From Bacteroidaceae bacterium (lineage in GTDB: Bacteria > Bacteroidota > Bacteroidia > Bacteroidales > Bacteroidaceae): a stretch of DNA of 52,410 bases. Location: the NCBI GenBank assembly GCA_024398515.1, contig JAKSIZ010000009.1:1-52410 (forward strand), read 5' to 3'. Positions 8,395 through 51,554 of the stretch are shown piece after piece. A program made the position numbers and the translations under genes. Position 1 is the stretch's first letter; every line of letters starts with the position of its first letter. The notes under the pieces were generated by a model that was given only the letters and a program-made list of their open reading frames with translations, was not told where the DNA came from and made no database searches.

Positions 8395-8519
8395 TTGAAC
8401 GCTTAACTCGGACAAACATTGCTGCAATGTTCGAGTCAACATTGCTGCAATGTTCGGACCAACATTGCTGCAATGTTTTTTTGCCCCAAGCGTTCGACCT
8501 CGGAAACCTAAGCGTTCAA
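8395..8519 (+). repeat. triple-palindrome element T1 (AACATTG core)
   Basis: Three identical 17-bp palindromes AACATTGCTGCAATGTT lie at 8415-8431, 8438-8454 and 8461-8477, separated by 6-nt spacers CGAGTC and CGGACC and followed by a T-run. The element is bounded by an exact 11-bp inverted repeat, TTGAACGCTTA (8395-8405) and TAAGCGTTCAA (8509-8519). A second partial right arm AAGCGTTCGA lies at 8488-8497. It occupies most of the non-coding stretch after cysS. In RNA each palindrome can fold on itself or pair with its neighbours. Confidence 0.9.
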
Positions 8520-8534
8520 CCTCGGAATTTCTTA

Positions 8535-8583
8535 ATCGGCTTGCCGCTTTCACAAAGCCTGAAAGGCGACTGAAAGAATGCTC
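8535..8583 (+). repeat. dispersed repeat shared with 48849-48893
   Basis: The 24 bp at 8535-8558 (ATCGGCTTGCCG then CTTTCACAAAGC) recur exactly, on the other strand, within 48849-48893. After a short variable part both continue with GCGACTGAAAGAA. It lies just outside the right arm of element T1. The function is unknown. Confidence 0.75.
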
Positions 8584-8720
8584 GAGTTCTCGAATAATAA
8601 CGTTCGCGGAGAGGAAAGAGAAAGAAGCATTCACGGGAAAATTTCACTAATTTAATAAACTTTTAAGATTTATTTAATTAAAAAATTAAATTAAATTGCC
8701 CTTTTTTGCGTATTTCTGTG

Positions 8721-8728
8721 TAAATTTG
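8721..8728 (+). promoter_or_regulatory. promoter -7 box of the envelope operon
   Basis: TAAATTTG matches TAnnTTTG and lies 27 bp before the ATG at 8756. ATTG at 8695-8698 is a weak upstream element with 22-bp spacing. It would drive the run of genes from 8756 to the terminator at 17561. Confidence 0.5.
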
Positions 8729-8755
8729 CACCCTGATTTGCAATTAAACGAAATT

Positions 8756-10144
8756 ATGACATTCAAGATGAAGAAATATCTCTCTATGATTTGCGCAGTC
8801 GTTGCGACTGCAATACTTTTCAGTTCATGCCTTGGCAATAGCGACGACAACACAATCGAAGCATCGGGCGACGCCATGATAACAGGCTTCACACTCGACC
8901 AGATACAACGCACGATACACCTCACGGCAAGCGACGGAAGCGACAGCACATACATCTCGAACTTCAGCGGAGCAAGCTGCAAGTTCAGCATCGACCACGT
9001 AAACGGACTCGTGTTCAATGCCGACTCACTGCCGAAGTGGACAAACCCGAAGAAGATCCTGTGCACCGTCTCCACTTACAATTCAAGCCCAGTAGGCTTC
9101 ATGAAACCAGACAACGACACGATTTTTATCTTCAACAACACCGACACAATGGACTTTACTGAGCCTATTGAGTTCCGCATATACCCTACCGACAACTCAG
9201 GCAACTACCGCAAATACATGGTATCGGTCAACATCCACAAGGAAGAAGGCGACTCGATGAAATGGACAAAAGTTGCAACGGAACCTAACATTGCCATCGA
9301 GAAAAGCCGTCTGTATAGCCTTGGCGACAGCATGATACTGATGGGACAAAAGGATGGCGCAACAAAGATTTACGGAACATTGGCAAAAGACGGAACGGTG
9401 TGGAACGAGGTTTCAGCCAACATCACACTCGACGAAAAGGCATACAACAACACCGTAATATACAAGAATGCACTGTTTACACTGAGCAACGGCACGCTTT
9501 ATAAGTCGGTTGATGCGAAAACATGGCAGGCAATCAGCACTCCGGCAATAGACAATCTCGTTGCTGCTGGCAGTGTTGAGATGTACGGAATAGGCTCAGG
9601 CAAGATAATGATGTCGAAGGACAACGGCACTACTTGGCAAGAAGATGCCATTAGCGATGCCTCGGCTGACCTGCCTGTAAAGGACTTCTCGTATGTCGTA
9701 ACCAATGTTTCAAGCAATGCAGAAACCGAGAGGATAGTGTTTGCAGGCAACAAGAACAGTGCCTCTGACGGAAGAAATGCAATGATATGGAGCAAGGTTG
9801 TAGAGAAAAGAGCCGACAGCGACACATACTCTTGGGTACACTTACAGCCAAGCAGAGAGCAAGGAGGACTGCCTTATCATGACAACTTGTGCATGGTACA
9901 GTACGACGGCAAGCTGTTTGCAATGAACAAAGACTACATTCTTGTGAGCATTGACGACGGACTTGTATGGAAAATTGCATCCAGTTTATACCAGAAACCA
10001 GCCAGTTTCAGCGCACAGGCATCGGAAATAACAATGGCAACCGACAGCAATAAGTACCTCTGGTTTGTCACCGACAAGGGCGAAGTTTGGCGTGCAAGAA
10101 TAAATCATCTGGCATGGGAAGAGAACAAAACAGCATTCAACTAA
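8756..10144 (+). CDS. DUF6242-like lipoprotein with Asp-box repeats
   Basis: About 460 residues. The start at 8756 (MTFKMKKYLSM) is preferred over an upstream in-frame ATG that would precede the promoter; the ATG at 8768 is equally possible. A lipoprotein signal peptide ends in LFSSC. An Ig-like N-terminal half (to about residue 160) is followed by repeats that look like a BNR/Asp-box propeller: LYKSVDAKTW, MMSKDNGTTW and VSIDDGLVW. This layout resembles the Bacteroidetes DUF6242 family, an assignment from memory. The role is unknown. Its stop overlaps the next start (TAATG), and the operon also encodes UppS, BamA and Skp-like chaperones, which suggests an envelope function. Confidence 0.8.
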   Translation: MTFKMKKYLSMICAVVATAILFSSCLGNSDDNTIEASGDAMITGFTLDQIQRTIHLTASDGSDSTYISNFSGASCKFSIDHVNGLVFNADSLPKWTNPKKILCTVSTYNSSPVGFMKPDNDTIFIFNNTDTMDFTEPIEFRIYPTDNSGNYRKYMVSVNIHKEEGDSMKWTKVATEPNIAIEKSRLYSLGDSMILMGQKDGATKIYGTLAKDGTVWNEVSANITLDEKAYNNTVIYKNALFTLSNGTLYKSVDAKTWQAISTPAIDNLVAAGSVEMYGIGSGKIMMSKDNGTTWQEDAISDASADLPVKDFSYVVTNVSSNAETERIVFAGNKNSASDGRNAMIWSKVVEKRADSDTYSWVHLQPSREQGGLPYHDNLCMVQYDGKLFAMNKDYILVSIDDGLVWKIASSLYQKPASFSAQASEITMATDSNKYLWFVTDKGEVWRARINHLAWEENKTAFN

Positions 10145-10821
10145 TGATAAAACGACTGATCCTTTCGCTCATCGTAGCCGTGCTAACCATTGGAGCATAC
10201 GCACAGGAAGCCGACTATTACCGCATGGAAATAGGCGGCGGACTCGGTGTGTGGAACTATCTCGGCGACTTCAACGGCAACCTTCTCAAGGGTTTTCAGC
10301 CTCAGTTATCGGCAATATGGAAGTATTTGCCAAACGAAAGAATGGCAATCAAGGCAGATTTCTCGTATGGAAACGTGAAGGGAGAAGCATCGAATGCGAA
10401 GGGTTATATACCCGAAGAACTCAAGGGATACGAGTTCAAGACCACACTCTACGACCTGAGTGCGATGTTTGAATACAACTTCTGGCGCCACGGAATGTCG
10501 GGCGACTACCGACACTTGCAGCGCCTCGTGCCATATATTACCCTCGGAATAGGCGGCACATTCATTCACTACGAGGGAGTAAACAAGGGAGCCTTATGCT
10601 TCCCAATAGGCTTTGGCGCAAAGTATAAGATAGCCGAAAGGCTGAACTTCGGCGCAGAATGGACGATGCACTTCTCCACTTCCGACTTCATTGACGGAGT
10701 GCAGGACTATCACGGCATCAAGAGTGAAGGACTTTTCAAGAACACCGACGGCTTCGGACAACTGAAACTTTACCTGACGTATAGTTTCATGGCGAAATGC
10801 CGGCAATGCAATAACCAATAG
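10144..10821 (+). CDS. DUF6089-like outer-membrane beta-barrel protein
   Basis: The 225-residue product starts at the ATG overlapping the previous stop (TAATG at 10142-10146). A signal peptide [20 protein letters not shown] is followed by [25 protein letters not shown] and alternating strands. These include ISAYT-free barrel-like segments such as [35 protein letters not shown] and [13 protein letters not shown]. The size, the '[13 protein letters not shown]' start and the place directly before uppS match the DUF6089 porin-like family of Bacteroidetes. The ligand and function are unknown. It probably sits in the outer membrane and may act with the lipoprotein encoded just upstream. Confidence 0.78.
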
Positions 10822-10826
10822 GAAAT

Positions 10827-11567
10827 ATGGTAGAAATAGACATGACACGCATACCTCGCCACATTGCAATCATAATGGATGGCAACGGACGATGGGCGAA
10901 CGAGAGAGGACAAGACCGCAGTTTCGGACATGCAGCAGGCATACAGACCGTAAAGGACATAACTGCCGAATGTACACGAATGGGAGTGAAATACCTGACG
11001 CTATACACATTCTCGACAGAGAATTGGAACCGTCCGGAGAATGAAGTCGGTGCAATCATGGACCTTCTCATAGCAGAATTGGAGGAGGAACTGTTCATGA
11101 ACAACAATGTCCGCTTCCGTGTCATCGGCGACATGGACAGATTGCCGGAACGTGTACAGGTGAAACTGAAAGAACTTACCGAACACACAAAGAACAACGA
11201 CCGCATGACCGTTGTCGCAGCAATAAGCTACAGCAGCAAATGGGAACTTGACCGTGCCGTAAAGAACATTGCATCTGACGCCATTGCAAACAAGATAAGC
11301 GTTGACGATATAAACGAGGAACTGATAAGCAGCTATTTGACTACTAACTTCATGCCCGACCCAGACCTGCTCATAAGGACTGGCGGCGAATTGAGATTGT
11401 CGAACTATCTGCTTTGGCAAATAGCCTATTCCGAACTTTATTTCTGCGATACCTATTGGCCAGACTTCAACAAAGAGGAACTCTATAAAGCCATCAAAGC
11501 ATACCAAGGCCGTCAAAGACGCTTCGGCAAAACAGAGAAACAAATCGAAAATGAAACGAAAGAATAA
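10827..11567 (+). CDS. uppS: isoprenyl transferase (undecaprenyl diphosphate synthase)
   Basis: UppS extends farnesyl diphosphate with isopentenyl units in cis to make the C55 carrier lipid for peptidoglycan and O-antigen. The catalytic Asp18 lies in [12 protein letters not shown] (13-24). The [10 protein letters not shown] region and the C-terminal [22 protein letters not shown] signature are intact. At 246 residues it is of normal length. The start is 5 bp after the upstream stop, with an alternative ATG five codons in. Its last 17 bp overlap the start of bamA, so coupled translation is likely. Confidence 0.97.
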
Positions 11568-14205
11568 GATTCATATAGTGAAACGAAAGTTTACAAGGGC
11601 AGTATTCGCGGCACTTTTCATGTTGTGCCCACTACTCCAACTGCAAGCCCAAGACAAGATAATCAATCCAAGCATAGTCTATGAGGGAATGCCTCGTACA
11701 TGTACCATTGGCGGCCTGAACGTGAAAGGCATCAAAGGTTACGAGGACTTTGTGCTGCTCGGCATATCCGGACTTGAGATAGGACAAGAGATTACGCTGC
11801 CAGGCAAGGAGATAACCGAAGCCGTGAAGCGATACTGGAAGAATGGTCTGTTCTCGGATGTTGCCATTTCAGCCGACTCACTCATTGGCGACCAAGTATA
11901 TCTCACGGTACACCTGAAACAACGTCCGCGCATTTCAGAAATACGCTATTATGGTATCAAGAAAAGCGAACGTGAGGATATGGAAGAGAAACTGGGCATG
12001 ATGAAGGGAAGTCAGATTACTCCGAACATGAAAGACCGTGCAAAAATACTTGCCAAGAAGTATTTTGACGACAAAGGTTTCAAGAATGCCGAGATAACAA
12101 TTGAGGAGATTGAGGACGTGGCAAATGAGAACCAAGTGTTCCTCGACGTAACAATTGACAAGAAAGAAAAGACAAAGGTAAAGGAAATCATCTTTGAAGG
12201 CAACGACAAGGTTACTACAAAGATGATGAAAGGTTCGCTCATAAAGAAGGGCGTATTGAAGAAACTGCACGAGGCAGGCAAATTCAGCAACATATTCAGC
12301 GGAAAGAAATTCACCGACGAAAAGCTGAAAGAGGACAAGGAAAACATACTTAAGAAGTATAGCGAACTGGGATATCGCGATGCAGAAATAGTCAAGGACA
12401 GCGTTTGGAACGTTGATGATAAGCATGTCAATGTCTATTTCAAGATCGACGAAGGACAGAAATACTACGTGCGTAACATTACTTGGGTAGGAAACACAGT
12501 CTTGCCTACCGACGGACTAAACCGCACTCTCCGCATGAAAAAGGGCGACGTCTATAACCAAGTCCACATGAACAAGCGACTCAAGGACGACGAAGACGCC
12601 ATCGGAAACTACTATTACAACACAGGATACGTGTTCTTCCGCTGCGATCCAACGGAAATAAATATCGTTGACGACTCCGTAGATATTGAAATGAGAATAG
12701 TGGAAGGTCCACAGGCACACATCAACAGAGTGCGCATCACGGGTAACGACCGACTTTATGAACACGTAGTTCGTCGTGAACTTCGTACTAAGCCAGGCGA
12801 CCTCTTCTCAAAGGATGCCATAGAACGTAGTGTACGTGAACTTGCGTCTATGGGGCATTTTGACCCTGAGCAGTGTGTTCCTGACATAAAACCAGACCCA
12901 GATAACGGAACTGTTGACATTGACTGGAACCTCGTCAGCAAAGGAAACGACCAGATTGAATTCTCACTCGGATGGGGACAGACTGGTGTCATCGGTCGTG
13001 TTAGCCTGAAGCTTAACAACTTCTCAATGCGCAACCTGTTCGGAAAGAACAAGGCTCATCGCGGTATCATGCCTATCGGCGACGGTGAACAGATGACCAT
13101 CAGTGCACAGACCAACGGTAGTTACTATCAGAGCTACAGCATATCTTATATGGATCCATGGTTTGGCCGTAAGCGTCCAAACATGTTTTCTGTCGGAGCA
13201 TTCTATTCTAAGCAAACAGATATTTCGAGTTCTTATTACAACTCAAGTTACTACAACAACTACTACAACTACTTGAGCGGATACGGCAGCAGCTACTACA
13301 GCGACTATACTGACTATTACGATCCTGACAAATACATCCAGATGTTTGGTGCTTCACTCGGTTGGGGTAAGCGTTTGCGCTGGCCTGATGACTACTTCCA
13401 GTTCAGTGCCACGTTGGCTTATCAACGCTATATGTTGAAGAACTGGCGTTACTTCCTCATCCAGACAGGTCACTGCAACAACATCAACCTCTCGTTGGCA
13501 CTTACACGTACATCAACGGACAACCAGTTGTTCCCACGTCGTGGTTCAGAGTTCTCGCTCTCAGTAACACTGACACCTCCGTTCTCAGCATGGGACGACA
13601 AGGATTATTCAGGACTTGCACAAAATCCTCTCGATGCACATTATCAGGATGAACTGCAAGACAAATACAGATGGATTGAATATCACAAATGGAAATTCAA
13701 GTCGCGTACATTCACTGCACTCACAAGTGCACAGAAGTGTTTTGTGCTTATGACACGTGCGGAAATTGGTATTCTCGGCAGTTATAACCAGAACAAGAAG
13801 TCGCCATTCGAAACATTCTACGTTGGTGGTGACGGAATGAGTGGATATTCTACAAGCTATGCAGAGGAAACCGTCGGACTTCGTGGTTATGAAAACGGTT
13901 CGTTGACTCCTCAAGGTTACACTGGTTATGCATACGACCGCTTCACACTTGAGCTCCGCTACCCATTCCTCTTCGGTAACACCACCATCTATGGACTTGG
14001 ATTTGTCGAAGGTGGTAACGCATGGACAGAAACCAAGAGCTTCAACCCATTCGACATGAAGCGTAGTGCCGGTGTCGGTGTCCGCATATTCCTCCCAATG
14101 GTTGGTTTGATGGGTATCGACTGGGCATACGGTTTCGACAAAGTTTACGGAAGCAATTCAGCAGGCGGAAGCCACTTCCATTTCATCCTCGGACAAGAGT
14201 TTTAA
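11551..14205 (+). CDS. bamA: outer-membrane protein assembly factor BamA
   Basis: BamA inserts beta-barrel proteins into the outer membrane. The 884 residues start with a signal peptide ending in LLQLQAQ. About five POTRA-type repeats follow up to around residue 435 (for example [19 protein letters not shown] and [21 protein letters not shown]), then a 16-strand barrel. The conserved VGLRGY motif of loop 6 and the C-terminal FHFILGQEF with terminal Phe are present. Residues about 560-594 form a Ser/Tyr/Asn-rich stretch ([15 protein letters not shown] and onward), probably an extracellular loop. The start lies inside the end of uppS; skp follows after 38 bp. Confidence 0.96.
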
Positions 14206-14243
14206 CACCATATATATATAATAAGGAATATAAAAAGAATATT

Positions 14244-14762
14244 ATGAAGAAAATAATCTTAACACTCGCATTGGCATGCACATTTGCATTCAATGCTTCG
14301 GCACAAAAGTTTGCACTCGTTGACATGGAATATATCCTCAAAAATATCCCTGCTTACGAACGTGCTAACGAACAATTAAACCAAACAAGCAAGAAATGGC
14401 AGGCAGAAGTTGATGCCATCAACACTGAAGTACAAACTCTCTATAAGAACTATCAGAACGAGTCGGTCTTCCTTTCACAGGAACAAAAGAAAAAGAAGCA
14501 AGACGAGATTATGGCAAAAGAAAAGGAAGCCGGAGAATTGAAACGCAAGTACTTCGGTCCTGAAGGCGAACTCTATAAGAAACGCGAATCATTGATGTCG
14601 CCTATACAAGAGGAGATTTACACTGCGGTAAAGGAAATAGCAAACCTCCGTGGCTATTCACTCATTCTCGACCGTGCGGCTGACAGCGGCATCATCTTCG
14701 CTTCACCAAAGAACGACATAAGCAACGAAGTCCTTGCAAAAATGGGATATTCTGTTCAATAA
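14244..14762 (+). CDS. OmpH/Skp-family periplasmic chaperone (copy 1)
   Basis: Skp-type chaperones hold unfolded outer-membrane proteins in the periplasm before BamA. The 172-residue product has a signal peptide (MKKIILTLALACTFAFNASA), then KFALVDMEYILKNIPAY, which matches the start of mature OmpH proteins. A long Lys/Glu/Gln-rich coiled-coil section (about 45-125) and the closing LILDRAADSGIIFASPKNDIS segment follow. It sits directly after bamA, the usual place. A second copy lies at 17040. Confidence 0.93.
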   Translation: MKKIILTLALACTFAFNASAQKFALVDMEYILKNIPAYERANEQLNQTSKKWQAEVDAINTEVQTLYKNYQNESVFLSQEQKKKKQDEIMAKEKEAGELKRKYFGPEGELYKKRESLMSPIQEEIYTAVKEIANLRGYSLILDRAADSGIIFASPKNDISNEVLAKMGYSVQ

Positions 14763-14829
14763 CAACTTTCCTATTCCAACACTTAAACTTATTGGAAGAA
14801 TATCAGTCTAACTAATAAAATGGTGGTAT

Positions 14830-16824: not shown

Positions 16825-16825
16825 T

Positions 16826-16984
16826 ATGAAGAAGACATATTGCATACCACAGACCAAATCAATTGAAGTAGAATACACTTTCGCCCTATGTGACAAAAGC
16901 GAAATAAATGTTGGAGGAGAAACAGGTAAAAAACCAATTATCACCGCAAAAGACGATATCTTTGATGAAAACTTCGGTTGGTAA
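16826..16984 (+). CDS. small protein of 52 residues after the C10 protease
   Basis: This short frame runs from the ATG at 16826 to the TAA at 16982-16984. It begins one base after the protease stop, so coupled translation is plausible. The product starts MKKTYCIPQTKSIEVEY and ends in an acidic tail (DDIFDENFGW). It has no signal peptide or membrane segment. A basic 'MKKxYxxPxTK' start with a variable Gly-rich and acidic tail resembles small uncharacterised proteins common in Prevotella. The tight linkage raises the possibility of an inhibitor or partner of the protease, but nothing in the sequence proves it. Confidence 0.6.
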   Translation: MKKTYCIPQTKSIEVEYTFALCDKSEINVGGETGKKPIITAKDDIFDENFGW

Positions 16985-17039
16985 ACATCGCACAACAATA
17001 AATAATATTTTTATATACACAACAAATAAAAAAAGAAAA

Positions 17040-17537: not shown

Positions 17538-17560
17538 GCCGGCACGATTGACAACATCAT

Positions 17561-17601
17561 AAGCCATGCGGTTCCAACACTCGGAATCACATGGCTTTTT
17601 T
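17561..17601 (+). terminator. terminator of the bamA-ompH operon
   Basis: AAGCCATG (17561-17568) pairs with CATGGCTT (17590-17597). An inner GGTTCC/GGAATC stem with one G-U pair closes the loop AACACTC, and a T-run extends to 17601. This is a strong intrinsic terminator 23 bp after the second ompH stop. Confidence 0.85.
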
Positions 17602-17648
17602 CATGCCTCAAACGCAAGCAAACGACGGGTTTACACATACCACTTCAC

Positions 17649-17756
17649 AAGTCGAGCGTTAAACCCTAAAAAACATTGCTCCAATGTTGACTCCAACATT
17701 GCAGCAATGTTGAGTCGAACATTGCAGCAATGTTTGAACGAGTTAAGCGTTCGACT
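17649..17756 (-). repeat. triple-palindrome element T2 (AACATTG core)
   Basis: On the plus strand the three units are AACATTGCTCCAATGTT (17672-17688, centre degenerate) and AACATTGCAGCAATGTT twice (17695-17711 and 17718-17734). The spacers GACTCC and GAGTCG are themselves complementary. Arms AAGTCGAGCGTTAAAC (17649-17664) and GTTAAGCGTTCGACTT (17742-17757) form an imperfect inverted repeat (14 of 16). By its arms and T-run it lies in the opposite orientation to T1. The non-coding stretch 17538-18068 holds the terminator, this element, and the mraZ operator and promoter. Confidence 0.9.
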
Positions 17757-17997
17757 TTCAAGACGGGAAACGTCAACCCTCGAAAAACATAAGCACAACT
17801 TTCAAAAAACATAAGCACGAACCACGAAAAACATACCATTATTTCACGGAGATTTTAACGACAAGTCAACAAACTTGTTCACTCAATATGCAAAATTACA
17901 CCACCTTTGTGTTATACAACATGTTTACACTCCCCACCTGTATTTCAGTGTGTTATAAAAAACTGTAAAAATATTTTCAAGATATTTAATAAAAAAG

Positions 17998-23641: not shown

Positions 23642-24940
23642 ATGTTATACTACATATTCAGATTCTTCGACCAATTCGGCATTGCCGGTTCGCATCTCTG
23701 GAGTTATATTTCGTTCAGAGCAATACTTGCGTTGATTCTTTCGCTCGTAATATCGGCATGGTTTGGCGAGTATTTCATCAAATATCTTCACCGCAAAAAC
23801 ATCACCGAGACGCAACGCGACGTCAAAATCGACCCATTCGGCATCAAGAAGATGGGCGTTCCGTCGATGGGAGGCATCATTATAATCGTTGCAATGCTCG
23901 TTCCTGCACTGCTGCTTGGACGCTTGAGAAACATCTACATGATACTTATGATCATCACAACCCTATGGCTTGGTTGCCTTGGATTTGCCGATGACTACAT
24001 CAAAATCTTCAAGAAAGACAAGGAAGGTCTGCATGGAAAGTTCAAGATTATAGGGCAAGTGGGGCTTGGACTCATCGTTGGTCTTACGCTTTTCCTCAGT
24101 CCTGATGCCGTCGTACGTGAGAATGTAGAGATGCCAAGCAAGCATCAGACAGAGATAGTCAAGCCTTTGTCGAACGATAACATAACGGTGAAACACGCGA
24201 AAGTCGAGTCAAAATCCACGAAGACAACAATACCATTCGTGAAGAACCACAACCTTGACTACACCGACATCTTCTCGTTCCTCGGCAAATACAAAGACGC
24301 TGCGGGATGGATTTTCATCGTCATACTCACCATCCTCGTCGTTACTGCCGTGTCGAACGGAGCCAATCTGAACGACGGAATGGACGGTATGTGTGCCGGA
24401 AACTCGGCTATCATAGGCGTGGCACTCGGCATATTGGCATACGTGTCGAGCCATATCGAGTATGCCGCCTACCTTAATATAATGTATATACCAGGCAGTC
24501 AGGAGCTGGTGGTATTCATGTGTGCATTCATCGGCGCACTCATCGGTTTCCTCTGGTACAATGCTTACCCAGCACAGATATTCATGGGCGACACTGGTTC
24601 GCTCACCATCGGTGGCATCATCGCCGTATGTGCCATCATCATCCATAAGGAACTCCTGTTGCCTATCCTCTGTGGCGTCTTCTTCGTTGAGAGCCTCAGC
24701 GTGATACTTCAGGTATGGTACTTCAAGCTTGGCAAGCGTCGCGGAGTGAAGCAACGCATATTCCGCCGCACGCCTATTCACGATAACTTCCGCACCGAGG
24801 ACTCGCAACTCGATCCGGAGTGCAAATACCTCCTGCGGGGTTCAAGCCGTGTGTTCCACGAATCGAAGATTACGTTCCGCTTCTGGATCATTACTGTCTT
24901 GCTGGCAGCACTGGCTATAATAACGCTGAAGATAAGATAA
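23642..24940 (+). CDS. mraY: phospho-MurNAc-pentapeptide transferase MraY
   Basis: MraY transfers phospho-MurNAc-pentapeptide to undecaprenyl phosphate, forming lipid I in the inner membrane. Catalytic motifs are FADDYIKIFKKDKEGLHGKFK (about 116-136), NLNDGMDG (around 245) and FMGDTGSL (around 315). About ten membrane helices are visible. At 432 residues it exceeds the roughly 360 of E. coli. The extra length is mostly a hydrophilic insert around residues 155-205 (VRENVEMPSKHQTE..STKTTIPF), an expanded loop also known in other Bacteroidetes. It is followed by element T3. Confidence 0.96.
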   Translation: MLYYIFRFFDQFGIAGSHLWSYISFRAILALILSLVISAWFGEYFIKYLHRKNITETQRDVKIDPFGIKKMGVPSMGGIIIIVAMLVPALLLGRLRNIYMILMIITTLWLGCLGFADDYIKIFKKDKEGLHGKFKIIGQVGLGLIVGLTLFLSPDAVVRENVEMPSKHQTEIVKPLSNDNITVKHAKVESKSTKTTIPFVKNHNLDYTDIFSFLGKYKDAAGWIFIVILTILVVTAVSNGANLNDGMDGMCAGNSAIIGVALGILAYVSSHIEYAAYLNIMYIPGSQELVVFMCAFIGALIGFLWYNAYPAQIFMGDTGSLTIGGIIAVCAIIIHKELLLPILCGVFFVESLSVILQVWYFKLGKRRGVKQRIFRRTPIHDNFRTEDSQLDPECKYLLRGSSRVFHESKITFRFWIITVLLAALAIITLKIR

Positions 24941-24972
24941 ATATGGAGACTCGACGCATAGAGTTTGACACC

Positions 24973-25078
24973 TTGAGCGATAAGGGCAAAAAAACATTGC
25001 ATGAATGTTGACTCCAACATTGCAGCAATGTTGAGTCGAACATTGCAGCAATGTTTGGACAAGTTAAGCGTTCAACTT
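24973..25078 (-). repeat. triple-palindrome element T3 inside the dcw cluster
   Basis: Units AACATTGCATGAATGTT (24993-25009, degenerate) and AACATTGCAGCAATGTT twice (25016-25032, 25039-25055) carry the same spacers as T2 (GACTCC, GAGTCG). The right arm TTAAGCGTTCAA (25064-25075) is intact; the left arm TTGAGCGATAAG is degraded. The tail shares CGGGAAACG and AAAACATAAGCA with T2. It fills the 202-bp gap between mraY and murD. Confidence 0.9.
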
Positions 25079-25142
25079 TAGCAACGATAAGCAACGAGTC
25101 GGGAAACGATAAGCAACGAACAAAGAAAACATAAGCATAGAG

Positions 25143-34957: not shown

Positions 34958-34989
34958 GGGGGGCAAATGCAATGTTTGTCTCCCTTTTT
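34958..34989 (+). terminator. rpsT terminator
   Basis: GGGGGGCAAA (34958-34967) pairs with TTTGTCTCCC (34975-34984), allowing two G-U pairs, around the loop TGCAATG. TTTTT follows at 34985-34989. Confidence 0.8.
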
Positions 34990-35008
34990 CGTTACCATCT
35001 CTGAGGAC

Positions 35009-35090
35009 GAACGCTTAACTCGGAAAAAAGTTGTACAACTTTCACTTGGAAGTTGTACAACTTTCGAACGAAAGTTGTACAACTTTTTTT
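35009..35090 (+). repeat. triple-palindrome element T4 (AAAGTTG core)
   Basis: The units AAAGTTGTACAACTTT (35027-35042), AAGTTGTACAACTTT (35050-35064) and AAAGTTGTACAACTTT (35071-35086) are separated by CACTTGG and CGAACG and run into TTTT. The arm GAACGCTTAACTCGG (35009-35023) is identical to that of T1, but the palindrome core is different. No right arm is found. The non-coding stretch 34931-35255 holds the terminator, this element and the inverted repeat at 35159-35221. Confidence 0.9.
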
Positions 35091-35158
35091 CACCCCCACC
35101 ACACACACCTGTAGAGTCTATCGCACGCTCAATGAAAATCGTATAAGGTTATTAGGTT

Positions 35159-35221
35159 GTGAGGTTATAAGGTTGTAAGAACTTTTTATGTCTTTAGGTA
35201 CTTATAACCTTACAACCTCAC
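35159..35221. repeat. 21-bp inverted repeat of the GGTTATAAGG family
   Basis: The 21 bp at 35159-35179 (GTGAGGTTATAAGGTTGTAAG split around a centre) are the reverse complement of 35201-35221 with two mismatches, both able to form G-U pairs in RNA. The loop is 21 nt. It lies between the convergent rpsT and arabinofuranosidase genes and could act as a terminator for the latter. TGAGGTTATAAGGTT also occurs at 5726-5771. Confidence 0.7.
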
Positions 35222-41306: not shown

Positions 41307-41353
41307 AAGGTCACCACTCTATTCTCTCCCCCTTGGGGGAGTTGGAGGGGGCT
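41276..41353. mobile_element. MITE-like element A with CCCCAAGGGG-type ends
   Basis: Left end AGCCCCCCTCTGTCCCCCCA then AGGGGGGATG (41276-41305). Right end CTCCCCCTTGGGGGAGTTGG then AGGGGGCT (41326-41353). The ends are imperfect inverted repeats, AGCCCC..../....GGGGCT, around a core of about 20 bp. A second copy with the ends swapped lies at 48816-48936. No transposase is encoded, so it would move only in trans. It covers the 3' ends of two convergent genes. Confidence 0.75.
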
Positions 41354-44513: not shown

Positions 44514-44546
44514 TTCTTTACTCCTTCGATATTTTTCAGTTGAATG

Positions 44547-44577
44547 CAAAGATAGGCATTTTTCTTTTCTTTTCAAA
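44547..44577 (-). promoter_or_regulatory. promoter of the sulfatase-phosphoesterase pair
   Basis: TTTG (complement of 44574-44577) is followed after 19 bp by TATCTTTG (complement of 44547-44554), a full consensus match. The expected transcript start near 44540 is 27 nt before the ATG at 44513. Confidence 0.75.
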
Positions 44578-44656
44578 AAATTGCCCCTATCTTTCTTAAA
44601 AATTTGACTTGTGTTAACAGAATTTTTCCGGCTCGTGCGGATGTTCTCCGTGGGGC

Positions 44657-44760
44657 GAACGCTTGGCTTTTACGGAACGTGCCTAATACTCGGGGAAAAA
44701 CTGTAGCAGTTTTCACTTGAAAACCGTAGCAGTTTTCGATCGAAAACTGCTACAGTTTTT
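44657..44760 (+). repeat. triple-palindrome element T5 (AAAACTG core)
   Basis: The units AAAACTGTAGCAGTTTT (44697-44713), AAAACCGTAGCAGTTTT (44720-44736) and AAAACTGCTACAGTTTT (44743-44759) are separated by CACTTG and CGATCG. Unit 3 is the exact reverse complement of unit 1, so the outer two can pair over 17 bp around the middle one. GAACGCTT (44657-44664) and ACTCGGGG before unit 1 recall the arm of T1 and T4, split by about 20 bp. It fills much of the 299-bp gap between the sulfatase and the glycosyltransferase. Confidence 0.85.
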
Positions 44761-44812
44761 TGTCGGGTATAAGCGTCGTCATGTGAATGACAAACGGTCG
44801 ATGCCAAAAAAA

Positions 44813-45754
44813 CTATTCGAGGAAGTCCTGCTCGTTATATATTGGGCGACGTTTCACTTCGCGATATATCTTGCCGACGTATGCTCCTACGCTTCCGAGA
44901 GCAATGAGGATTACTCCGCCTACAAACCAAACTGAGAGTATCAACGAAGCCCAGCCTTGCACAGCCGTGCCGCTGAGGAGCGATACGAGTACGTAGATGG
45001 CAATGAGTATGCTAATGAGAATGAACACCACGCCAGTATAGACCACGTAAAGGAGTGGCTTGGTTGAGAACGACGTGATGCCGTCGAGTGCGAGATTGAG
45101 CATCTTGCTCAAGGTGTATTTCGACTTTCCTGCCTGGCGTTCGCTCAGCACGTCTTCGACGATTGTTGACGGAAATCCTATCTGTGGAAACATTCCCCTA
45201 AGGTAAAGGTTTCGCTCTGGGTATCGGGAGAGTGCCTCGATGACTCGGCGACTGACAAGACGGAAATCGGCATGATTATAGACCATATCGACGCCCATAC
45301 GCTTCTGCAGCTTGTAGAACAATTGTGCCGACGTGCGTTTCAACCATGAGTCGGCATGGCGTTGTACCTTTACGCCATAGACAACATCGAAACCTTTGTC
45401 GAAGTTATCAACCATCTGCTCTATACACTTTACGTCGTCCTGAAGGTCGGCATCAATAGTAACGACAGCATCACTCATGTCCTTCGCCTTCATCATACCA
45501 GCGTATATGGCCGATTGATGCCCTACATTGTGGGCAAGGTTAAGGCCTTTGACGAATGGATATTCGTTGTGCAGACGGCAGATGACATCCCATGTGGAGT
45601 CGTGGCTACCGTCGTTTACAAAGAGTGCAAAACTGTCTGCCGAGATTTTTTTCTTACATTTGAGGTCGTTGAAGAGTTTGTTCAGCTGTCTTGCAGTCAA
45701 TGTGAGCACCTCTTCTTCGTTGTAACAAGGCAGTACAATTGCTAAGCGTATCAT
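44813..45754 (-). CDS. GT2 family membrane glycosyltransferase (DPM/GtrB-like)
   Basis: The 313-residue protein has an N-terminal GT-A domain (IVLPCYNEEEVL, then FVNDGSHDST, LAHNVGHQSAIYAGM and the DADLQDD metal site near 102). Two C-terminal membrane helices follow (about 235-262 and 272-297). This matches enzymes that load a sugar onto undecaprenyl phosphate (GtrB, DPM or ArnC type). With a polysaccharide deacetylase gene 62 bp upstream, a role in envelope polysaccharide decoration is likely. Sugar and acceptor cannot be read from the sequence. Confidence 0.92.
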   Translation of the reverse strand: MIRLAIVLPCYNEEEVLTLTARQLNKLFNDLKCKKKISADSFALFVNDGSHDSTWDVICRLHNEYPFVKGLNLAHNVGHQSAIYAGMMKAKDMSDAVVTIDADLQDDVKCIEQMVDNFDKGFDVVYGVKVQRHADSWLKRTSAQLFYKLQKRMGVDMVYNHADFRLVSRRVIEALSRYPERNLYLRGMFPQIGFPSTIVEDVLSERQAGKSKYTLSKMLNLALDGITSFSTKPLLYVVYTGVVFILISILIAIYVLVSLLSGTAVQGWASLILSVWFVGGVILIALGSVGAYVGKIYREVKRRPIYNEQDFLE

Positions 45755-45816
45755 TGTTTGTAGGGTTATTTTAATTTGTTTGTTCGGTGGTCTGGTAGTT
45801 TTTGTTGTTTTGTTGT

Positions 45817-46602
45817 TTAGTTTTTTTGGAGTCTAAACGAGCAAAACGACTTGTATGTGGCAAAGGTTTCACCGCTGGATTTCAACTTCTTTATCAGTCG
45901 GTCGAGGCGTTGCTGCATCTGTCGGCCGCTGTGATTACGTATGATGAAAGGCATCCTGAACTCTGGATGTTGCTTCAATTCATAGAACTCCCACGGGTGG
46001 AAATAGGTATTGAAGTAGCCGTCGTGCTTTAATACTCGCTTCACAAATGCATAGTAGAGCCACTCAGGGAAGTTGTGGAGAGCAAGCCAGAAGAGTGGTA
46101 TGCGCAACCAAGGAGTGACGGATGCAGGTATCTGAAGCACTCCGTCCTTCATGAAATAAGTTCGTGGAGTGGTAAGATGCATGTATCGCCCAGGGATGAA
46201 TGCAGGGTTCAGCGATGAGTTGTACGTGTAACCGCACGCCTTTATATCGGCATCGCTGACAGGGAACATGCGTGGCTGACGGTAACCATAGCACTTGATT
46301 CCCATCTGACTTTCGATGATCTGCTTTGAGTTTTTCACGTCTGAAGCCTCGGGTTTCCAGTGGTCGCAGCCGTGGCAAGCAATCTCGTGTCCCTCGGAGA
46401 GTATGCGTTGTATCACGTCAGGAGCGTTCTGCACGAAGTTTGAAGTGCAGAAAAACGTGGCTTTTACCTGATTTTCTGCAAGAATATCAAGTATTTTGTT
46501 AGTGCCATAAACGGAGACTTCCATCCCTTGTGCGAGTGAAAAGTCAACTCCATGCTCGCGTGGAACGTCGAATTCTTCGGTGTCGAAACTCAGTAGAACC
46601 AT
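45817..46602 (-). CDS. polysaccharide deacetylase (NodB fold)
   Basis: The 261-residue protein begins directly with the catalytic motif LLSFDTEEF (Asp7). It has HEIACHGCDHW with metal ligands His77 and His81, then YGYRQPRMF and the closing FHPWEF. This is the NodB/DUF3473-type form seen in polysaccharide loci. No signal peptide is visible, so it is probably cytoplasmic and acts on a lipid-linked or nucleotide-linked sugar. It sits between the DUF3089-like gene (27 bp) and the GT2 gene (62 bp). The substrate is unknown. Confidence 0.92.
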   Translation of the reverse strand: MVLLSFDTEEFDVPREHGVDFSLAQGMEVSVYGTNKILDILAENQVKATFFCTSNFVQNAPDVIQRILSEGHEIACHGCDHWKPEASDVKNSKQIIESQMGIKCYGYRQPRMFPVSDADIKACGYTYNSSLNPAFIPGRYMHLTTPRTYFMKDGVLQIPASVTPWLRIPLFWLALHNFPEWLYYAFVKRVLKHDGYFNTYFHPWEFYELKQHPEFRMPFIIRNHSGRQMQQRLDRLIKKLKSSGETFATYKSFCSFRLQKN

Positions 46603-46629
46603 TGTGTTTTTATTTTCTTTCTTATGACA

Positions 46630-47535
46630 TCAATATGCACGTTTGTATGCATTGGCCTTTATTGACTCGCGATAGAAGAGCAAATCCCAATGATGCAGGT
46701 TGCCTTTCGGGTAGAATGCTTCCTGCCCTGGCGTATAGTATTTGCTGATGTCAAGGCCTTCGACGATGAGAACATTCATTGCCGTATCGACTTTTACGGT
46801 TGCTGTGTCGCCATGATAATACAGAGGCGCAGGAGTTGCATCGGTTGTCCAGTTGATAGGATTGATACATACTGCGGCACCATCAGTGATGTCGTGCCAG
46901 ATGGCATCGGTTGAAGTGACGGAGTTGAACGAAACAGTGACGCCTGTTCCAGTCTCAGACATGGCAGGTTTGATGTGAGGGTTCTTCAAGTCTTCGGCTG
47001 TCAACCTGTAGCCTATCATGTAGGCAGCAACGAGACGTTCGTATTGCTTGTCGGAGATATGCTTCAGCAACGACAAAGTATGCATTGCCCCCTGACTGAA
47101 ACCAGCAATGATGAAACGGCGGCCTTTGTTGTAATGCTTCATGTAGTAGTCGAAGGCGTCGCACACTTCTTGCGTGATTGCCGAAAGGCTGTCCATACGA
47201 TTTTCCACTGTTGCATTGATTGCCGAGAGGGTGAACTGGTGGTAATACGGCGAGAAGAAGTTTACGGAATCGCCAAACATATACTTGGCATAGTCCATCT
47301 CCTTGTAGAACTGCTTGCGTTCATCGGGTGTAAGTTGTGCACGGAACACTTCATTTCCGTTGGCATCGACCGACTTGTTTGTGACTGTTGACGTGATGTA
47401 GAACACATCAACAAGGTTATCGTCGGCAGGTTTGTCTGTCTGATACCACATGTCAGACGCATCCCACGGCGAAAACTGCTTGTGGGAACAGCCGATCATC
47501 AGCAACGTCAGCAAAAGGAAAAATAGTTTTTTCAT
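46630..47535 (-). CDS. DUF3089-like alpha/beta-hydrolase lipoprotein
   Basis: The 301-residue protein has a lipoprotein signal peptide ending in LLMIGC (Cys16). The mature part carries WDASDMWYQTD, VDVFYITSTV, a long helix before the nucleophile elbow FIIAGFSQGAM (Ser147), and CINPINWTTD toward the end. These are features I associate with the DUF3089 family of Bacteroidetes. The hydrolase fold is well supported, the reaction unknown. The gene follows the U32 gene after 22 bp and precedes the deacetylase by 27 bp. Confidence 0.85.
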   Translation of the reverse strand: MKKLFFLLLTLLMIGCSHKQFSPWDASDMWYQTDKPADDNLVDVFYITSTVTNKSVDANGNEVFRAQLTPDERKQFYKEMDYAKYMFGDSVNFFSPYYHQFTLSAINATVENRMDSLSAITQEVCDAFDYYMKHYNKGRRFIIAGFSQGAMHTLSLLKHISDKQYERLVAAYMIGYRLTAEDLKNPHIKPAMSETGTGVTVSFNSVTSTDAIWHDITDGAAVCINPINWTTDATPAPLYYHGDTATVKVDTAMNVLIVEGLDISKYYTPGQEAFYPKGNLHHWDLLFYRESIKANAYKRAY

Positions 47536-47557
47536 ACCTTATTATATATATAATGTG

Positions 47558-48793
47558 TCAATCTTGTTGCACAAGTTTATACAGTTTATCCGATGGCCGT
47601 ACCTTTTCAGGCACAGGGATTGATATGCTCTGGCCCTTTACGGCTTCATCTACAGGCTTTAAGTCGAAGCGGATCTCGTCGGCATTCAGGTAGATTACAC
47701 CAGTCGTCGGACCAGTGATGAGCAGTCGGTCGCCCTTTTTCAGAGTGCCGGCTTCCATCTTGAACTCTGCCACGCCGATGTTGCTGAAGTATCTCACGCC
47801 CTTGGCAATATACTCTTTCTTCTCGGTGGCATTGCTGCCGTAGTTCCTGTTCCACTCTCCAAGTCGCTGACCGAGATAGTAACCATTCCAGAAACCACGG
47901 TTGAACACGGTGCTGAGTTGCTCGTCCCACTTGTCTTTCTTCTCGTCGGTAAACGTGCCCTCTACCACCGCGGCAATCGCTTCCTTGTAGCAGTTCACCA
48001 CGGTATAGACGTATTCTGCCGAACGTGCACGGCCTTCAATCTTGAAAACACTGACGCCAGATTTCATCATCTTGTCGATGAAACGGATTGTCTTCAGGTC
48101 TTTCGGCGACATTATATACTTGTTGTCTATCTCAAGTTCATCGCCTGTCTCGCGGTCGGTGACGATATAACTGCGACGACAAATCTGCATACATTCACCA
48201 CGATTAGCACTGCGCCCTGCATTGTCTAACGACATGTAGCACTTGCCGCTTATTGCCATACACAACGCTCCATGGCAGAACATCTCGATTCTCACAAGTT
48301 CGCCACTCGGACCACATACGTGTTGCTCCTCGATCTGACGATGTATCTCAGCCACTTGGTCGAGGTTAAGTTCTCGTGCAAGGACAACAACATCGGCAAA
48401 CTGGGCATAGAACTTCAGTGCCTCGATGTTCGAGATGTTGAGTTGTGTTGACAGGTGAACCTCCATTCCACGCTGCCGGCAATAGAGCATCACGGCAATG
48501 TCGCATGCAATGATTGCCGAAATCCTTGCCTCGACAGCAGCATCGACAATCTCGTGCATCGTATTGATGTCCTCACCATATATCACTGTATTGACCGTCA
48601 GGTACGACTTCACGTCGTGTTCATGGCATATCTGTGCTATCTCCTTAAGGTCGTCGATAGTGAAATGGTTCGCACTATGTGAGCGCATGTTGAGTTTGCC
48701 TATACCGAAATATACGCTGCCTGCCCCTGCTTTCAAAGCCGCCGATAGGCTCTCACGAGAACCTACCGGCGCCATTATTTCATATTTATTCAT
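47558..48793 (-). CDS. peptidase U32 family protein (RNA-hydroxylation type)
   Basis: The 411-residue protein starts MNKYEIMAPVGSRESLSAALKAGA, as U32 proteins do. It holds a cysteine set (MFCHGALC, SGKC and GECMQICRR, about 172-215) that in RlhA and TrhP supports iron-sulfur-dependent hydroxylation of rRNA or tRNA. VFKIEGRARSAEYV follows and a small beta domain closes the protein. Despite the family name, protease activity is doubtful for such members. Whether the target is rRNA or tRNA is open. Repeat element B lies between it and pnp. Confidence 0.88.
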   Translation of the reverse strand: MNKYEIMAPVGSRESLSAALKAGAGSVYFGIGKLNMRSHSANHFTIDDLKEIAQICHEHDVKSYLTVNTVIYGEDINTMHEIVDAAVEARISAIIACDIAVMLYCRQRGMEVHLSTQLNISNIEALKFYAQFADVVVLARELNLDQVAEIHRQIEEQHVCGPSGELVRIEMFCHGALCMAISGKCYMSLDNAGRSANRGECMQICRRSYIVTDRETGDELEIDNKYIMSPKDLKTIRFIDKMMKSGVSVFKIEGRARSAEYVYTVVNCYKEAIAAVVEGTFTDEKKDKWDEQLSTVFNRGFWNGYYLGQRLGEWNRNYGSNATEKKEYIAKGVRYFSNIGVAEFKMEAGTLKKGDRLLITGPTTGVIYLNADEIRFDLKPVDEAVKGQSISIPVPEKVRPSDKLYKLVQQD

Positions 48794-48815
48794 TTTTTTT
48801 ACGGTCTAAGGTTAA

Positions 48816-48936
48816 AGCCCCTCCAACTTCCCCAAGGGGGAGTGATATGAACGTTCTTTCAGTCGCTACGCTTTGTGAAAGCGGCAAGCCGATGACATCC
48901 CCCCTTGGGGGGACAGAGGGGGGCTGGAGGGGGGCT
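48816..48936. mobile_element. MITE-like element B, second copy with longer core
   Basis: Left end AGCCCCTCCAACTTCCCCAA then GGGGGAG (48816-48842). Right end CATCCCCCCTTGGGGGGACA then GAGGGGGGCT (48896-48925), plus a partial repeat of that end to 48936. The ends match those of element A but in swapped order, so the copy is inverted relative to A. The core of about 53 bp contains the repeat shared with 8535-8583. It lies between pnp (stop at 48941) and the U32 gene. Confidence 0.75.
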
Positions 48937-48940
48937 GCCT

Positions 48941-51175
48941 TTACTCTTCCTTACGTGGAGCCTTTTCGCGATGGTTGTCGCGACGATTGTCGTGACGCTC
49001 GCCACGCTCTGGACGCGGACGGCGCTCACGCTCTACATAACCTTCTGGCTTTGGAGTAAGCACACGGCGAGAGAGTTTGAACTTGCCTGTCTTCTTGTCA
49101 ACGTCGATAAGCTTAACCGTAATCCTGTCGCCTTCCTTCACTCCTGTCTCTTCAACAGTCTCAAGACGATTCCAATCCATTTCGCTTATGTGGAGAAGTC
49201 CATCCTTGCCTGGCATGAATTCTACGAAGCATCCGTAAGGCATTATCGACTGAACCTTGCCTTCATATACCTCGCCAATCTCAGGAACTGCTACTATGGC
49301 GCGAACCTTGCGCAATGCTCCGTCGATGCTTTCCTTATTCGGACCGCTAATGATGACCTTTCCGCCTTCTTCAACTTCCTCTATTGTTATCGTTGAGCCT
49401 GTCTCTTCCTGGATACCCTGGATAACCTTGCCACCAGGACCTATCACTGCTCCGATGAAGTCCTTTGCGATTATCATCACTTCCATGCGTGGTACCTGTG
49501 GCTTGAACTCGGCACGAGGTTCTGAGATTGTCTTCATCATCTCGCCCATGATATGCTCACGGCCAGCCTTTGCCTGCATCAATGCCTTCTCGAGTATTTC
49601 GTAAGAGAGTCCGTCGCACTTGATATCCATCTGTGTTGCTGTCAAGCCGTTTACTGTTCCTGTAGTCTTGAAGTCCATGTCGCCGAGGTGGTCTTCGTCG
49701 CCAAGGATGTCGCTGAGTACGGCATATTTATCTTCGCCAGGGTTCTTTATGAGGCCCATTGCTATACCTGCCACTGGGTTCTTCATTGGGATACCGGCAT
49801 CCATGAGGGCAAGTGTGCCGGCACATGTTGTTGCCATCGACGAACTTCCGTTGCTTTCCAATACGTCAGAGACTACGCGTACAGTGTAAGGGAAGTCCTC
49901 AGGTATCTGTCCCTTGAGGGCACGCCATGCAAGATGTCCGTGTCCTATCTCGCGACGACCTGTTGAACGCTGCGCCTTTGCTTCGCCTGTGCAGAATGGT
50001 GGGAAGTTATAGTGCAGCAGGAATCTCATGTAACTATGGTCGAGAACATCGTCAACAAGTTTCTCATCGAGCTTTGTCCCGAGCGTACATGTTGCCAATG
50101 CCTGCGTTTCTCCACGTGTGAATATGCTGCTTCCGTGTGGGTAAGGCAGCGGTGAAACCTCGCACCAGATAGGGCGGATGTCCGTAGTCTTACGTCCATC
50201 GAGGCGGATACCTTCGTCGAGAATACAACGGCGCATGGCGTCGCGCTCCACGTCGGCATAGTATCTGTCAGCCAGTACGGCCTTTTCTTCCATCTCGTCC
50301 TCGGTCAGTTCTGCATGTGCTTCAGCGTAAGCAGTCTTGAAATCCTCTATAATCTGTGCAAAAGCCTCGGCACGTGCCTGCTTCTCAAGTCCTTGTTTAG
50401 TTACGTCGTATGCCTTCTGGTAGCACTCGGTTCTCACCTGTTCGCGAAGTTCCTCATCGTTCACCTCGTGGCAATACTCGCGCTTTACGTCCTTGCCCAA
50501 CTCCTTCGAGAGTTCTTCCTGAAGCTCACACATCGGTTTGATAGCGTCGTGTGCAGCCTTGAGCGCACCGAGAAGATCCTGCTCGGAAACTTCCTTCATC
50601 TCGCCTTCAACCATCATGATATTGTCCTTCGATGCACCAACCATAAGGTCCATATCGGCATCCTTCATCTGGGCAAACGTTGGGTTGATGACATACTCGC
50701 CATTCACGCGTGCCACGCGAACCTCAGAGATAGGGCACTCAAACGGTATGTCCGACACTGCCAACGCTGCACTTGCAGCAAAACCAGCCAATGCATCTGG
50801 CTGATCAACGCCGTCGGCAGAGAACAGTATTACGTTAACATAAACTTCTGCGTGATAGTTCGACGGGAACAGTGGGCGCAAAGCTCGGTCAACGAGCCGG
50901 CAAGTGAGGATCTCATTGTCGCTTGGCTTACCCTCGCGCTTCGTGAAGCCTCCAGGGAAGCGGCCGTAAGCGGCATACTTCTCGCGGTATTCCACCTGCA
51001 GAGGCATAAAGTCAGTTCCAGGAACAGCATCCTTTGCGGCGCAGACAGTTGCCAATAACATTGTGTTACCCATACGGAGCATCACAGCACCGTCAGCCTG
51101 TTTCGCCAGTTTTCCTGTCTCAATGCTGATCTGACGACCGTCAGGCAGAGAGACTGTCTTTGTTACTACATTCAT
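48941..51175 (-). CDS. pnp: polyribonucleotide nucleotidyltransferase (PNPase)
   Basis: PNPase degrades RNA 3' to 5' with phosphate. The ATG at 51175 ([22 protein letters not shown]) gives 744 residues; the upstream extension to 51229 is not family-like. Two RNase PH domains flank a helical linker. The first carries the [14 protein letters not shown] segment, the second [19 protein letters not shown] and [14 protein letters not shown] domain ([18 protein letters not shown]) and an S1 domain ([30 protein letters not shown]) follow. It ends in an Arg/Glu-rich tail ([19 protein letters not shown]). A promoter box lies about 110 bp upstream. Confidence 0.98.
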
Positions 51176-51282
51176 AATTTTCTTTTCTTTTTCGTTAAAT
51201 AAACCTCTAAAAATTACATCTAAAAACATCTAATACATCAAAAATAACATCTTAAATATTCAGATAATTTCATAATCGACTG

Positions 51283-51290
51283 CAAAGGTA
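51283..51290 (-). promoter_or_regulatory. pnp promoter, -7 box
   Basis: TACCTTTG (complement of 51283-51290), in the context TTATTACCTTTGCA, gives a leader of about 100 nt before the ATG at 51175. No TTTG lies at the usual upstream distance. The leader carries four ACATC/GATGT repeats (51216-51251). Confidence 0.6.
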
Positions 51291-51488
51291 ATAAAAATTT
51301 ACAACATCCAATGTCCAATTTATAATTTATTTGCATTTCCCTTGTTATTTATCATCCCTCTGCGCTAAAGTCGCAAAGATTGACCTTTATACTTGAAAGT
51401 CATCGACGCTTGCGTCGGTTCTTGCAGTCGTCGCTGGCTCCTTTGTGCAAGCGCTAACGCGATGATTACCAAGCGCAGCGACTAAAAG

Positions 51489-51554
51489 AAAACTGTAGCA
51501 GTTTTCAACCTAAAACTGTAGCAGTTTTGGATCGAAAACTGCTACAGTTTTTTT
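51489..51554 (+). repeat. triple-palindrome element T6 (AAAACTG core)
   Basis: AAAACTGTAGCAGTTTT at 51489-51505 and 51512-51528, then AAAACTGCTACAGTTTT at 51535-51551, with spacers CAACCT and GGATCG and a T-run after unit 3. Units 1 and 2 are each the exact reverse complement of unit 3, so unit 3 can pair with either. No GAACGCTT arm is seen; CCAAGCGCAGCGACT lies just before. The non-coding stretch 51176-51658 also holds the pnp leader and promoter and two hairpins. Confidence 0.88.

Follow-up and report, generated by a model that had tools for sequence, protein, structure and literature searches.

Evenly spaced intergenic arrays of three palindromes, with exchangeable cores, in a Prevotella genome

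Introduction

BrickBuilt, a repeat of Porphyromonas gingivalis, and PINSR, a repeat of Prevotella intermedia, are the nearest described counterparts of the elements reported here, which are intergenic arrays of three tandem palindromes set between inverted arms. Six such elements (T1-T6) lie in a 52,410-nt contig (JAKSIZ010000009.1 of assembly GCA_024398515.1; contig C89 in our numbering, and hereafter the window) from a Bacteroidaceae bacterium that is grouped under Prevotella as defined by the collection of 398 genomes that we sampled. BrickBuilt shares with these elements an intergenic position, a 23-nt tandem period, inverted-repeat ends, an association with assembly gaps and the order Bacteroidales; in the part of its description cited here, however, the 23-nt consensus is not palindromic, one copy holds 18 repeats, a genome holds 19 copies and the ends are of IS5 type (PMC4596501). 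Compared with the unit as quoted in that part of the source, AGAYCATARTATCCTCTCRTRTG, the units of T1-T6 gave no match. PINSR is likewise intergenic, is 188 bp long, occurs in 177-184 copies and is limited to a Prevotella sublineage; the portion of its source used here describes it without terminal inverted repeats (PMC4755523), so that it is set apart from our elements by description and not by sequence. A preliminary description of the window, made from its letters, knew of no named element of this form, and we likewise found no description of these elements in the open-access literature searched.

The matS, parS and Noc sites are dispersed short palindromic sites for a nucleoid protein. The elements described here differ from them in forming arrays of three, in falling into several families, in being evenly spaced and in having cores that are exchanged between sister species. 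Repetitive extragenic palindromic (REP) sequences, with their compound forms, bacterial interspersed mosaic elements (BIMEs) and REP doublets forming hairpins (REPINs), resemble our elements in being short, palindromic and extragenic, in numbering hundreds of units per genome and in forming lineage-specific families. In contrast to these, our elements have an exact pitch of 22-23 bp and three units, share arms across families, and exclude each other over kilobases.

Results

The genome (2.65 Mb in 90 contigs, 88% complete) was read over 803 kb, or 30%, in 16 pieces. One genome per species was sampled, the assembly is fragmented and incomplete, and the gene calls and intergenic gaps are our own. 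Genomes are numbered with a G, where G000 is the present genome, G210 its sister, and the other G numbers sampled genomes of the genus group.

The DNA read contains 78 elements, of which 73 are full triplets and five have one or two units (two of the five are cut by, or close to, a contig end); scaled up, this would give about 260 elements per genome. They fall into four core families: F1, AACATTG-nnn-CAATGTT (24 elements, including T1-T3); F2, AAAACTG-nnn-CAGTTTT (28, including T5 and T6); F3, AAAGTTGTACAACTTT (22, including T4); and the rare F4, AACATTCT-n-AGAATGTT (4/78), which is absent from the window. Each palindrome is 16-17 bp long, each full element has three, and the step from one unit to the next is 23 bp (F1, F2 and F4) or 22 bp (F3) in all 146 of 146 steps. 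Units were accepted with up to two core mismatches, a cut-off on which unit identity depends; 178 of 219 units had no core mismatch.

A core-blind scan of the 434 kb read first returned 28 same-core triplets, versus none in one Markov-resampled control. At a looser score the scan returned 37 triplets, all scoring 19-21 of 21, none 18 and none outside F1-F4, and two controls again gave none. A chance origin, which the preliminary description had allowed for by asking whether triplets are any commoner than in shuffled DNA, is rejected because the resampled controls contained no triplets.

Flanks aligned outward from the palindromes revealed inverted arms that are kept on both sides in F1, F2 and F3. 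The arm consensus consists of degenerate 22-bp direct repeats, whose inner module ends ...GAACGTTTAACTCGGAAA at the first palindrome, and one arm profile fits all core families, with matches on both sides of 54 elements, on one side of 22 and on neither side of two. Searched across the 803 kb at E up to 10, as a control for the mismatch cut-off, this profile matched 150 places; 149 adjoin known elements and the last is a weak match (E 4.3) inside a gene. Thus this arms-only search revealed no copy in which the arms are readable but the core has decayed, although copies whose arms had also decayed would be invisible to it and to the core search. F3 and F4 elements often combine one standard arm (an A end) with one G-rich B end.

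The B end is a hairpin-like sequence (CCCCTCTACAG...CTGTTGGGGG) found beside many F3 and two F4 triplets, for example at window 35087-35130 and around 7731-7770 of locus L039. It was not seen among the F1 or F2 flanks inspected.

Direct reading of the sequence bore out all six elements of the window. Their spacers, first put at about 6 nt, are exactly 6 nt, and the elements are larger than first drawn, since the arms extend at least 66 bp outward from the core. Arms are present on both sides of T1, T2, T3 and T5 and on one side of T4 and T6:

T1, 8349..8543, unstranded: three F1 palindromes at 8415-8477 with inverted arms on both sides (arm matches at 8333-8413 and 8479-8531).
T2, 17606..17800, unstranded: three F1 palindromes at 17672-17734 with inverted arms on both sides.
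T3, 24927..25121, unstranded: three F1 palindromes at 24993-25055, one unit with one mismatch; right arm good, left arm weak (E 2.3).
T4, 34961..35152, unstranded: three F3 palindromes at 35027-35086, pitch 22; left arm standard, right end G-rich and of B type.
T5, 44631..44825, unstranded: three F2 palindromes at 44697-44759 with inverted arms on both sides.
T6, 51489..51617, unstranded: three F2 palindromes at 51489-51551, with an arm detectable on the right only.

An Rfam search of the window matched a single tRNA and nothing at the elements.

The regularity of their spacing is a finding beyond the preliminary description. The 62 intervals between neighbouring elements have a mean of 10.19 kb and a coefficient of variation (CV) of 0.395; the shortest is 4119 bp and none is below 4 kb. 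When elements were placed in intergenic gaps at random, uniformly or weighted by gap length (5000 trials each), the mean CV was 0.87 and 0.78, and at least nine and at least seven intervals, respectively, fell below 4 kb. Three nulls in which the element length was stripped from the gap (3000 trials each) had minima of 7 to 9 such intervals, and the CV minima across all five nulls were 0.55-0.62. Pairs of neighbours from one family and from two families lie at similar distances (medians 8.3 versus 9.6 kb, minima 5.0 versus 4.1 kb), and the spacing rule therefore acts across cores. Room for closer neighbours exists but is unused, as 63 gaps of 250 bp or more are empty and 41 of them have an element within 4 kb. 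An exception to the regularity is a 28-kb interval on contig C12, which is filled largely by long genes; eight of its proteins were scanned, and a TonB-receptor plug domain was recognised in one and a family 8 glycosyl hydrolase domain in another.

Elements occupy 73 of 217 gaps, and beyond these four lie at piece edges and one touches a called gene end. Occupied gaps of at least 100 bp showed no orientation preference, with 43/135 tandem, 21/56 divergent and 9/26 convergent gaps holding an element.

We compared elements of one family with each other (F1-F3, 68 elements, ungapped) to assess which parts are conserved. Units were 96.5-97.4% identical and the spacers within a triplet 57-64%, versus 35% at random. 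Outward along the arms, identity was 44-77% at positions -1 to -4, 49-61% at -5 to -22, 40-43% at -23 to -44 and 32-37% at -45 to -66, followed by 27-30%; conservation peaks near the core and fades outward, with no sharp termini. A gapped comparison gave 58-64% for the inner 22 nt, versus 44-47% for shuffled arms, and left the units unchanged.

After a recent burst of copying, elements would be alike along their whole length. With units 97% identical and arms about half identical, the arms have drifted and such a burst is rejected; concerted copying of whole triplets, as first proposed, is not supported, because the spacers inside them have drifted too. Selection on a fold, also proposed, would keep paired arms matched, which was not seen: an element's two arms complement each other less well, on average, than do arms taken from different elements, clearly so in F1 and F3 and weakly in F2 and F4, although the A/B mixture at F3 and F4 ends would be enough to lower this own-arm complementarity. 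Fold selection is thus not supported, and an outer stem in RNA or in a cruciform is rejected. Of the interpretation offered in the preliminary description, which was partly supported, the portion that fits best is selection on recognition by a protein, because the palindromes are ~97% identical while identity in the inner arms is down to 49-61%. This pattern is read most simply as sequence-specific recognition of each palindrome.

G210 is the closest relative of the present genome among the 398 sampled (MraY 92% identical, the next 81%), yet the two differ in their cores. The F1 pattern has 181 plus-strand matches in the present genome and no more than one in any of 23 other genus genomes; for the F3 core the figures are 124 here and one at most in any of the 397 others. 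The sister carries 33 units of a 17-bp core, AAAGTTG-nnn-CAACTTT, that has no match in the present genome, and a further core, AAGTTTTGCAAAACTT, stands at the start of two of its contigs. It also has ACACCT-n-AGGTGT arrays, which bear inverted ends of their own; at up to one mismatch these ends were matched 123 times on one strand and 125 times on the other, and not at all in the present genome. At least 96 elements were found in G210; among those listed, 12 intervals lie within contigs, the shortest being 6.1 kb, and three of them separate different core families.

Searched against 192 kb of G210 loci, the arm profile of the present genome gave 12 hits; as the loci overlap, these represent eight distinct places. 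All eight adjoin AAAGTT- or AAGTTTT-type palindromes (a single palindrome at the L101 place), and none of the matches in these loci adjoins an ACACCT array. The other DNA searched with the profile, namely G371 (100 kb), G256 (87 kb), AAACG loci (0.66 Mb) and 57 further loci (1.04 Mb), had no match at E up to 1. Similar arms thus accompany different cores in the two species. The early proposal that the architecture is kept while the core is replaced as a set gains from this, in that one arm profile serves all families and finds, weakly, eight G210 places beside other-core palindromes.

An early comparison of three loci had found one G210 site empty and two with other-core arrays. The empty site is that of T3, which sits between mraY and murD (named by NCBIfam) and which has no core in G210, G371 or G256; the G210 site possibly retains a remnant, and the comparison is ambiguous for a target-site duplication. 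The G210 gap matching T2 holds an array with another core (L099:10822-10888). Two syntenic G210 sites with other cores had suggested orthologous, in-place core replacement. The fuller comparison took in 32 G210 elements, of which 11 were usable, 18 had no syntenic flank in the DNA read and three had a flank more than 500 bp away. Of the 11 usable sites, 4 hold an element here, close to the background of 73/217, and in-place replacement was not retained; all four coincidences are F1 sites, too few to use. As this does not exceed background, the elements seem to move or turn over between species, and the lasting feature seems to be the spacing rule, not the places.

The class of triplet palindromes is wider than one genome, and a pitch of 22 is a sharp peak across the Prevotella sampled. 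Prevotella lacticifex JCM 34664 (G211, with exact 700-base matches for two of six loci tested) has arrays of an unrelated core, AAACGG-n-CCGTTT, with exactly three units in 20 of 24 cases and a 22-bp step in 48 of 48 (20-24 allowed), between conserved inverted flanks of their own. Across 21 arrays, identity was 95% in the units and then 61, 44 and 31% outward; seven of these arrays are in tandem, seven in convergent and four in divergent gaps, two are at edges and one lies over a called open reading frame. Among 53 elements listed on one contig, none are closer than 6.6 kb (P=0.0009).

Of 249 genus genomes, nine contain pairs of AAACG-nnn-CGTTT units with a pitch of about 22. A permissive triplet scan at pitches of 14-30 (57 loci, 1.04 Mb, 43 other genomes) gave 27 hits, of which 19 were at exactly 22, versus seven hits and one at pitch 22 in resampled DNA; the 19 are not all independent, since six are of AAACG type and some of the remainder have a core in common. 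Tandem arrays of period 22, palindromic or not, numbered 23 in 14 of 52 stretches and zero in resampled DNA. Other periods above 16 reached at most six arrays each, and periods 10 and 11 reached 19 and 15.

Several period-22 arrays lie within 20 kb at L128 (G148:C1:100001-120000), L130 and L135, with cores GCACCATTGGTGC and TTTTCATGAAAA and similar arrays in two other genomes; these could be related to PINSR. In G192 (L150:20-125, on C4), three ATTACGACGTAAT-type palindromes at pitch 22 lie inside a perfect inverted repeat, GATTACGCTTTTTT, near a contig start, and related copies occur elsewhere in that genome, several of them also near contig starts.

Several contigs of G000 and G210 start or end within or right beside an element (G000 C2:20, C12:62 and C11:221; G210 C109, C126 and C171). 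The arrays therefore probably fragment assemblies.

Discussion

Each element could well be a dyad-symmetric docking array for a putative sequence-specific, probably dimeric DNA-binding protein, a reading that we adopt tentatively. Dimers would bind the three palindromes cooperatively and in phase on one face, the pitch of 22-23 bp being about two helical turns, and the arms would extend or position the complex. The complex would mark or bound chromosomal segments in a nucleoid or supercoil-domain role; complexes every ~10 kb would match the size quoted for supercoil domains in the part of the source cited (PMC3420936). The recognition sequence would change by co-evolution with the protein, so that cores are swapped as a set while geometry, arms and the spacing rule stay, and several core families in one genome would represent several paralogous binding specificities with one spacing role. 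With somewhat less confidence, we suggest that Prevotella may possess a genus-wide system of evenly spaced architectural arrays, in which fast-evolving binding proteins rewrite the cores genome-wide between sisters while geometry and spacing persist, a counterpart in bacteria of fast co-evolving centromere or boundary DNA.

Several observations weigh against a docking array. The protein is hypothetical and the case for it is drawn from sequence. The predicted single-strand folds of all six window elements are very strong (z -5.3 to -10.2), as is expected where three palindromes can pair. Element places are not conserved, the 4/11 comparable G210 sites being near background, and each G210 arm match is weak by itself (E 0.001-0.4). 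Even spacing does not hold everywhere: the CV is 1.01 among the P. lacticifex elements listed, and in G074, where AAACG arrays are dense, neighbours lie ~3.3 and ~3.5 kb from each other. Finally, immunity like that of phage Mu would yield the same spacing.

That last point belongs to the main rival, which we consider less likely: a non-autonomous mobile element resembling a miniature inverted-repeat transposable element (MITE), whose transposase would bind the 22-bp modules and whose target immunity would bar a copy of any family within several kilobases. High copy number, intergenic position and inverted arms suit such an element (inverted repeats, as in a MITE, stand on both sides in 54/78 and on one side in 22/78), as do places that are not conserved between sister genomes. 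The ends of Mu and Tn7 carry several inward-facing transposase sites of ~22 bp, and the arms would work like them through their own inward-facing modules. Mu cis-immunity, in the part of the report cited, peaks at around 5 kb and weakens from there to 25 kb (PMC7350765), an exclusion range close to our minimum interval of 4.1 kb. Unlike Mu and Tn7 ends, however, the elements have no sharp termini and have three central palindromes, and their transposase is hypothetical. Arm conservation that is highest near the core and falls outward, cores that are held while arms and spacers drift, and the lack of decayed-core copies with readable arms among those searched also argue against mobility. As for an autonomous relative, arms occur only beside cores within the 30% of the genome read. 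F1, F3 and AAACGG pairs were absent from the viral contigs scanned (F2 was not among the patterns searched), and a BLAST search of phage and plasmid records gave no match to T1. Mu-transpos_C was found in 0/20 genomes, but its control gave no match, so this counts for little.

Function is favoured by the intact cores between drifted arms, by the fading ends and by the absence of decayed-core copies from the search, and mobility by the different places of elements in sister species. Both may be true in turn, with spread first and retention by selection after.

REP- or BIME-like repeats moved by a Y1 transposase (a REP-associated tyrosine transposase, RAYT), which were among the roles first proposed, share the general character set out above, but we judge them improbable. 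Matches to Y1_Tnp in the array-bearing G210 (four) and P. lacticifex (two) favour this proposal, as does the association of subclass 2.6 Y1 proteins of Bacteroidetes with atypical hairpins in the part of the survey cited (PMC6006769). Y1 matches are patchy, however, occurring in 4 of 7 genomes with known arrays, with none in the array-bearing G074, G149 and G136, and also in several genomes without arrays. None of seven Y1 loci with up to ~1.5 kb of flank adjoins any of eight core patterns; these were one locus each in G000, G010, G211, G210, G371, G004 and G061, so that one of the matches in G210 and one in G211 are represented, and the genomes are incomplete. The canonical GT[AG]G tag stands at 1 of 438 unit sides and CGTC at 3. 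In the portion of the study used here (PMC3116915), REPIN spacing above 200 bp does not deviate from random, whereas our elements are evenly spaced. The lack of a tag, the lack of a core beside the seven Y1 loci examined and the patchy distribution of Y1 lead us to reject this explanation.

The only PF01797 match found in the present genome, and all that the check for a RAYT gene returned there, is a Y1-type transposase fragment with an internal stop (L022, G000:C18:22396-22599). No core adjoins it.

Similarly improbable are RNA-level elements, that is, terminators or stabilisers of mRNA 3' ends. T-runs follow the third palindrome and the predicted folds are strong, but 21/56 divergent gaps hold an element, for which reason an intrinsic terminator was rejected. 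The asymmetric ends of F3 show no bias (4 versus 3 among seven usable), and the arms of one element do not covary. Since placement shows no orientation preference in either the present genome or P. lacticifex, with divergent gaps here occupied as often as others, the RNA processing or stability unit of the preliminary description is unlikely.

The least probable explanation is a self-recognition signal for DNA uptake akin to uptake signal sequences (USS) and DNA uptake sequences (DUS), whose species-specific dialects recall our species-specific cores. Genomic USS, which in the part of the source cited are abundant and, like our elements, relatively evenly distributed (PMC7811141), are short single motifs ~1 kb apart and thus far denser than armed triplets 10 kb apart.

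An interspersed repeat whose copies lie ~10 kb apart across four unrelated cores is unusual: in the one REP family whose spacing is considered here, placement beyond 200 bp is random. Should the arrays be bound by an architectural protein, the size of chromosomal domains would be marked in the sequence and could be tested in Prevotella, a major genus of gut and rumen; if they are mobile, they would provide natural evidence of target immunity over a whole chromosome. Core exchange between sister species would amount to a replicated evolutionary experiment on DNA-protein co-evolution, and one carrier of the arrays, P. lacticifex JCM 34664, is a named species whose strain has a collection number.

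Other repeats in the window

Two intergenic sites of the window, 5717-5776 and 35136-35179, hold tandem repeats (family D3) of a degenerate 8-bp unit, ATAAGGTT/GTAAGGTT. A C-rich/G-rich sequence (CCCCCTTGGGGG...GGGGGCT; family D18) is present in two copies that are 77% alike, at 41328-41353 and 48900-48925.

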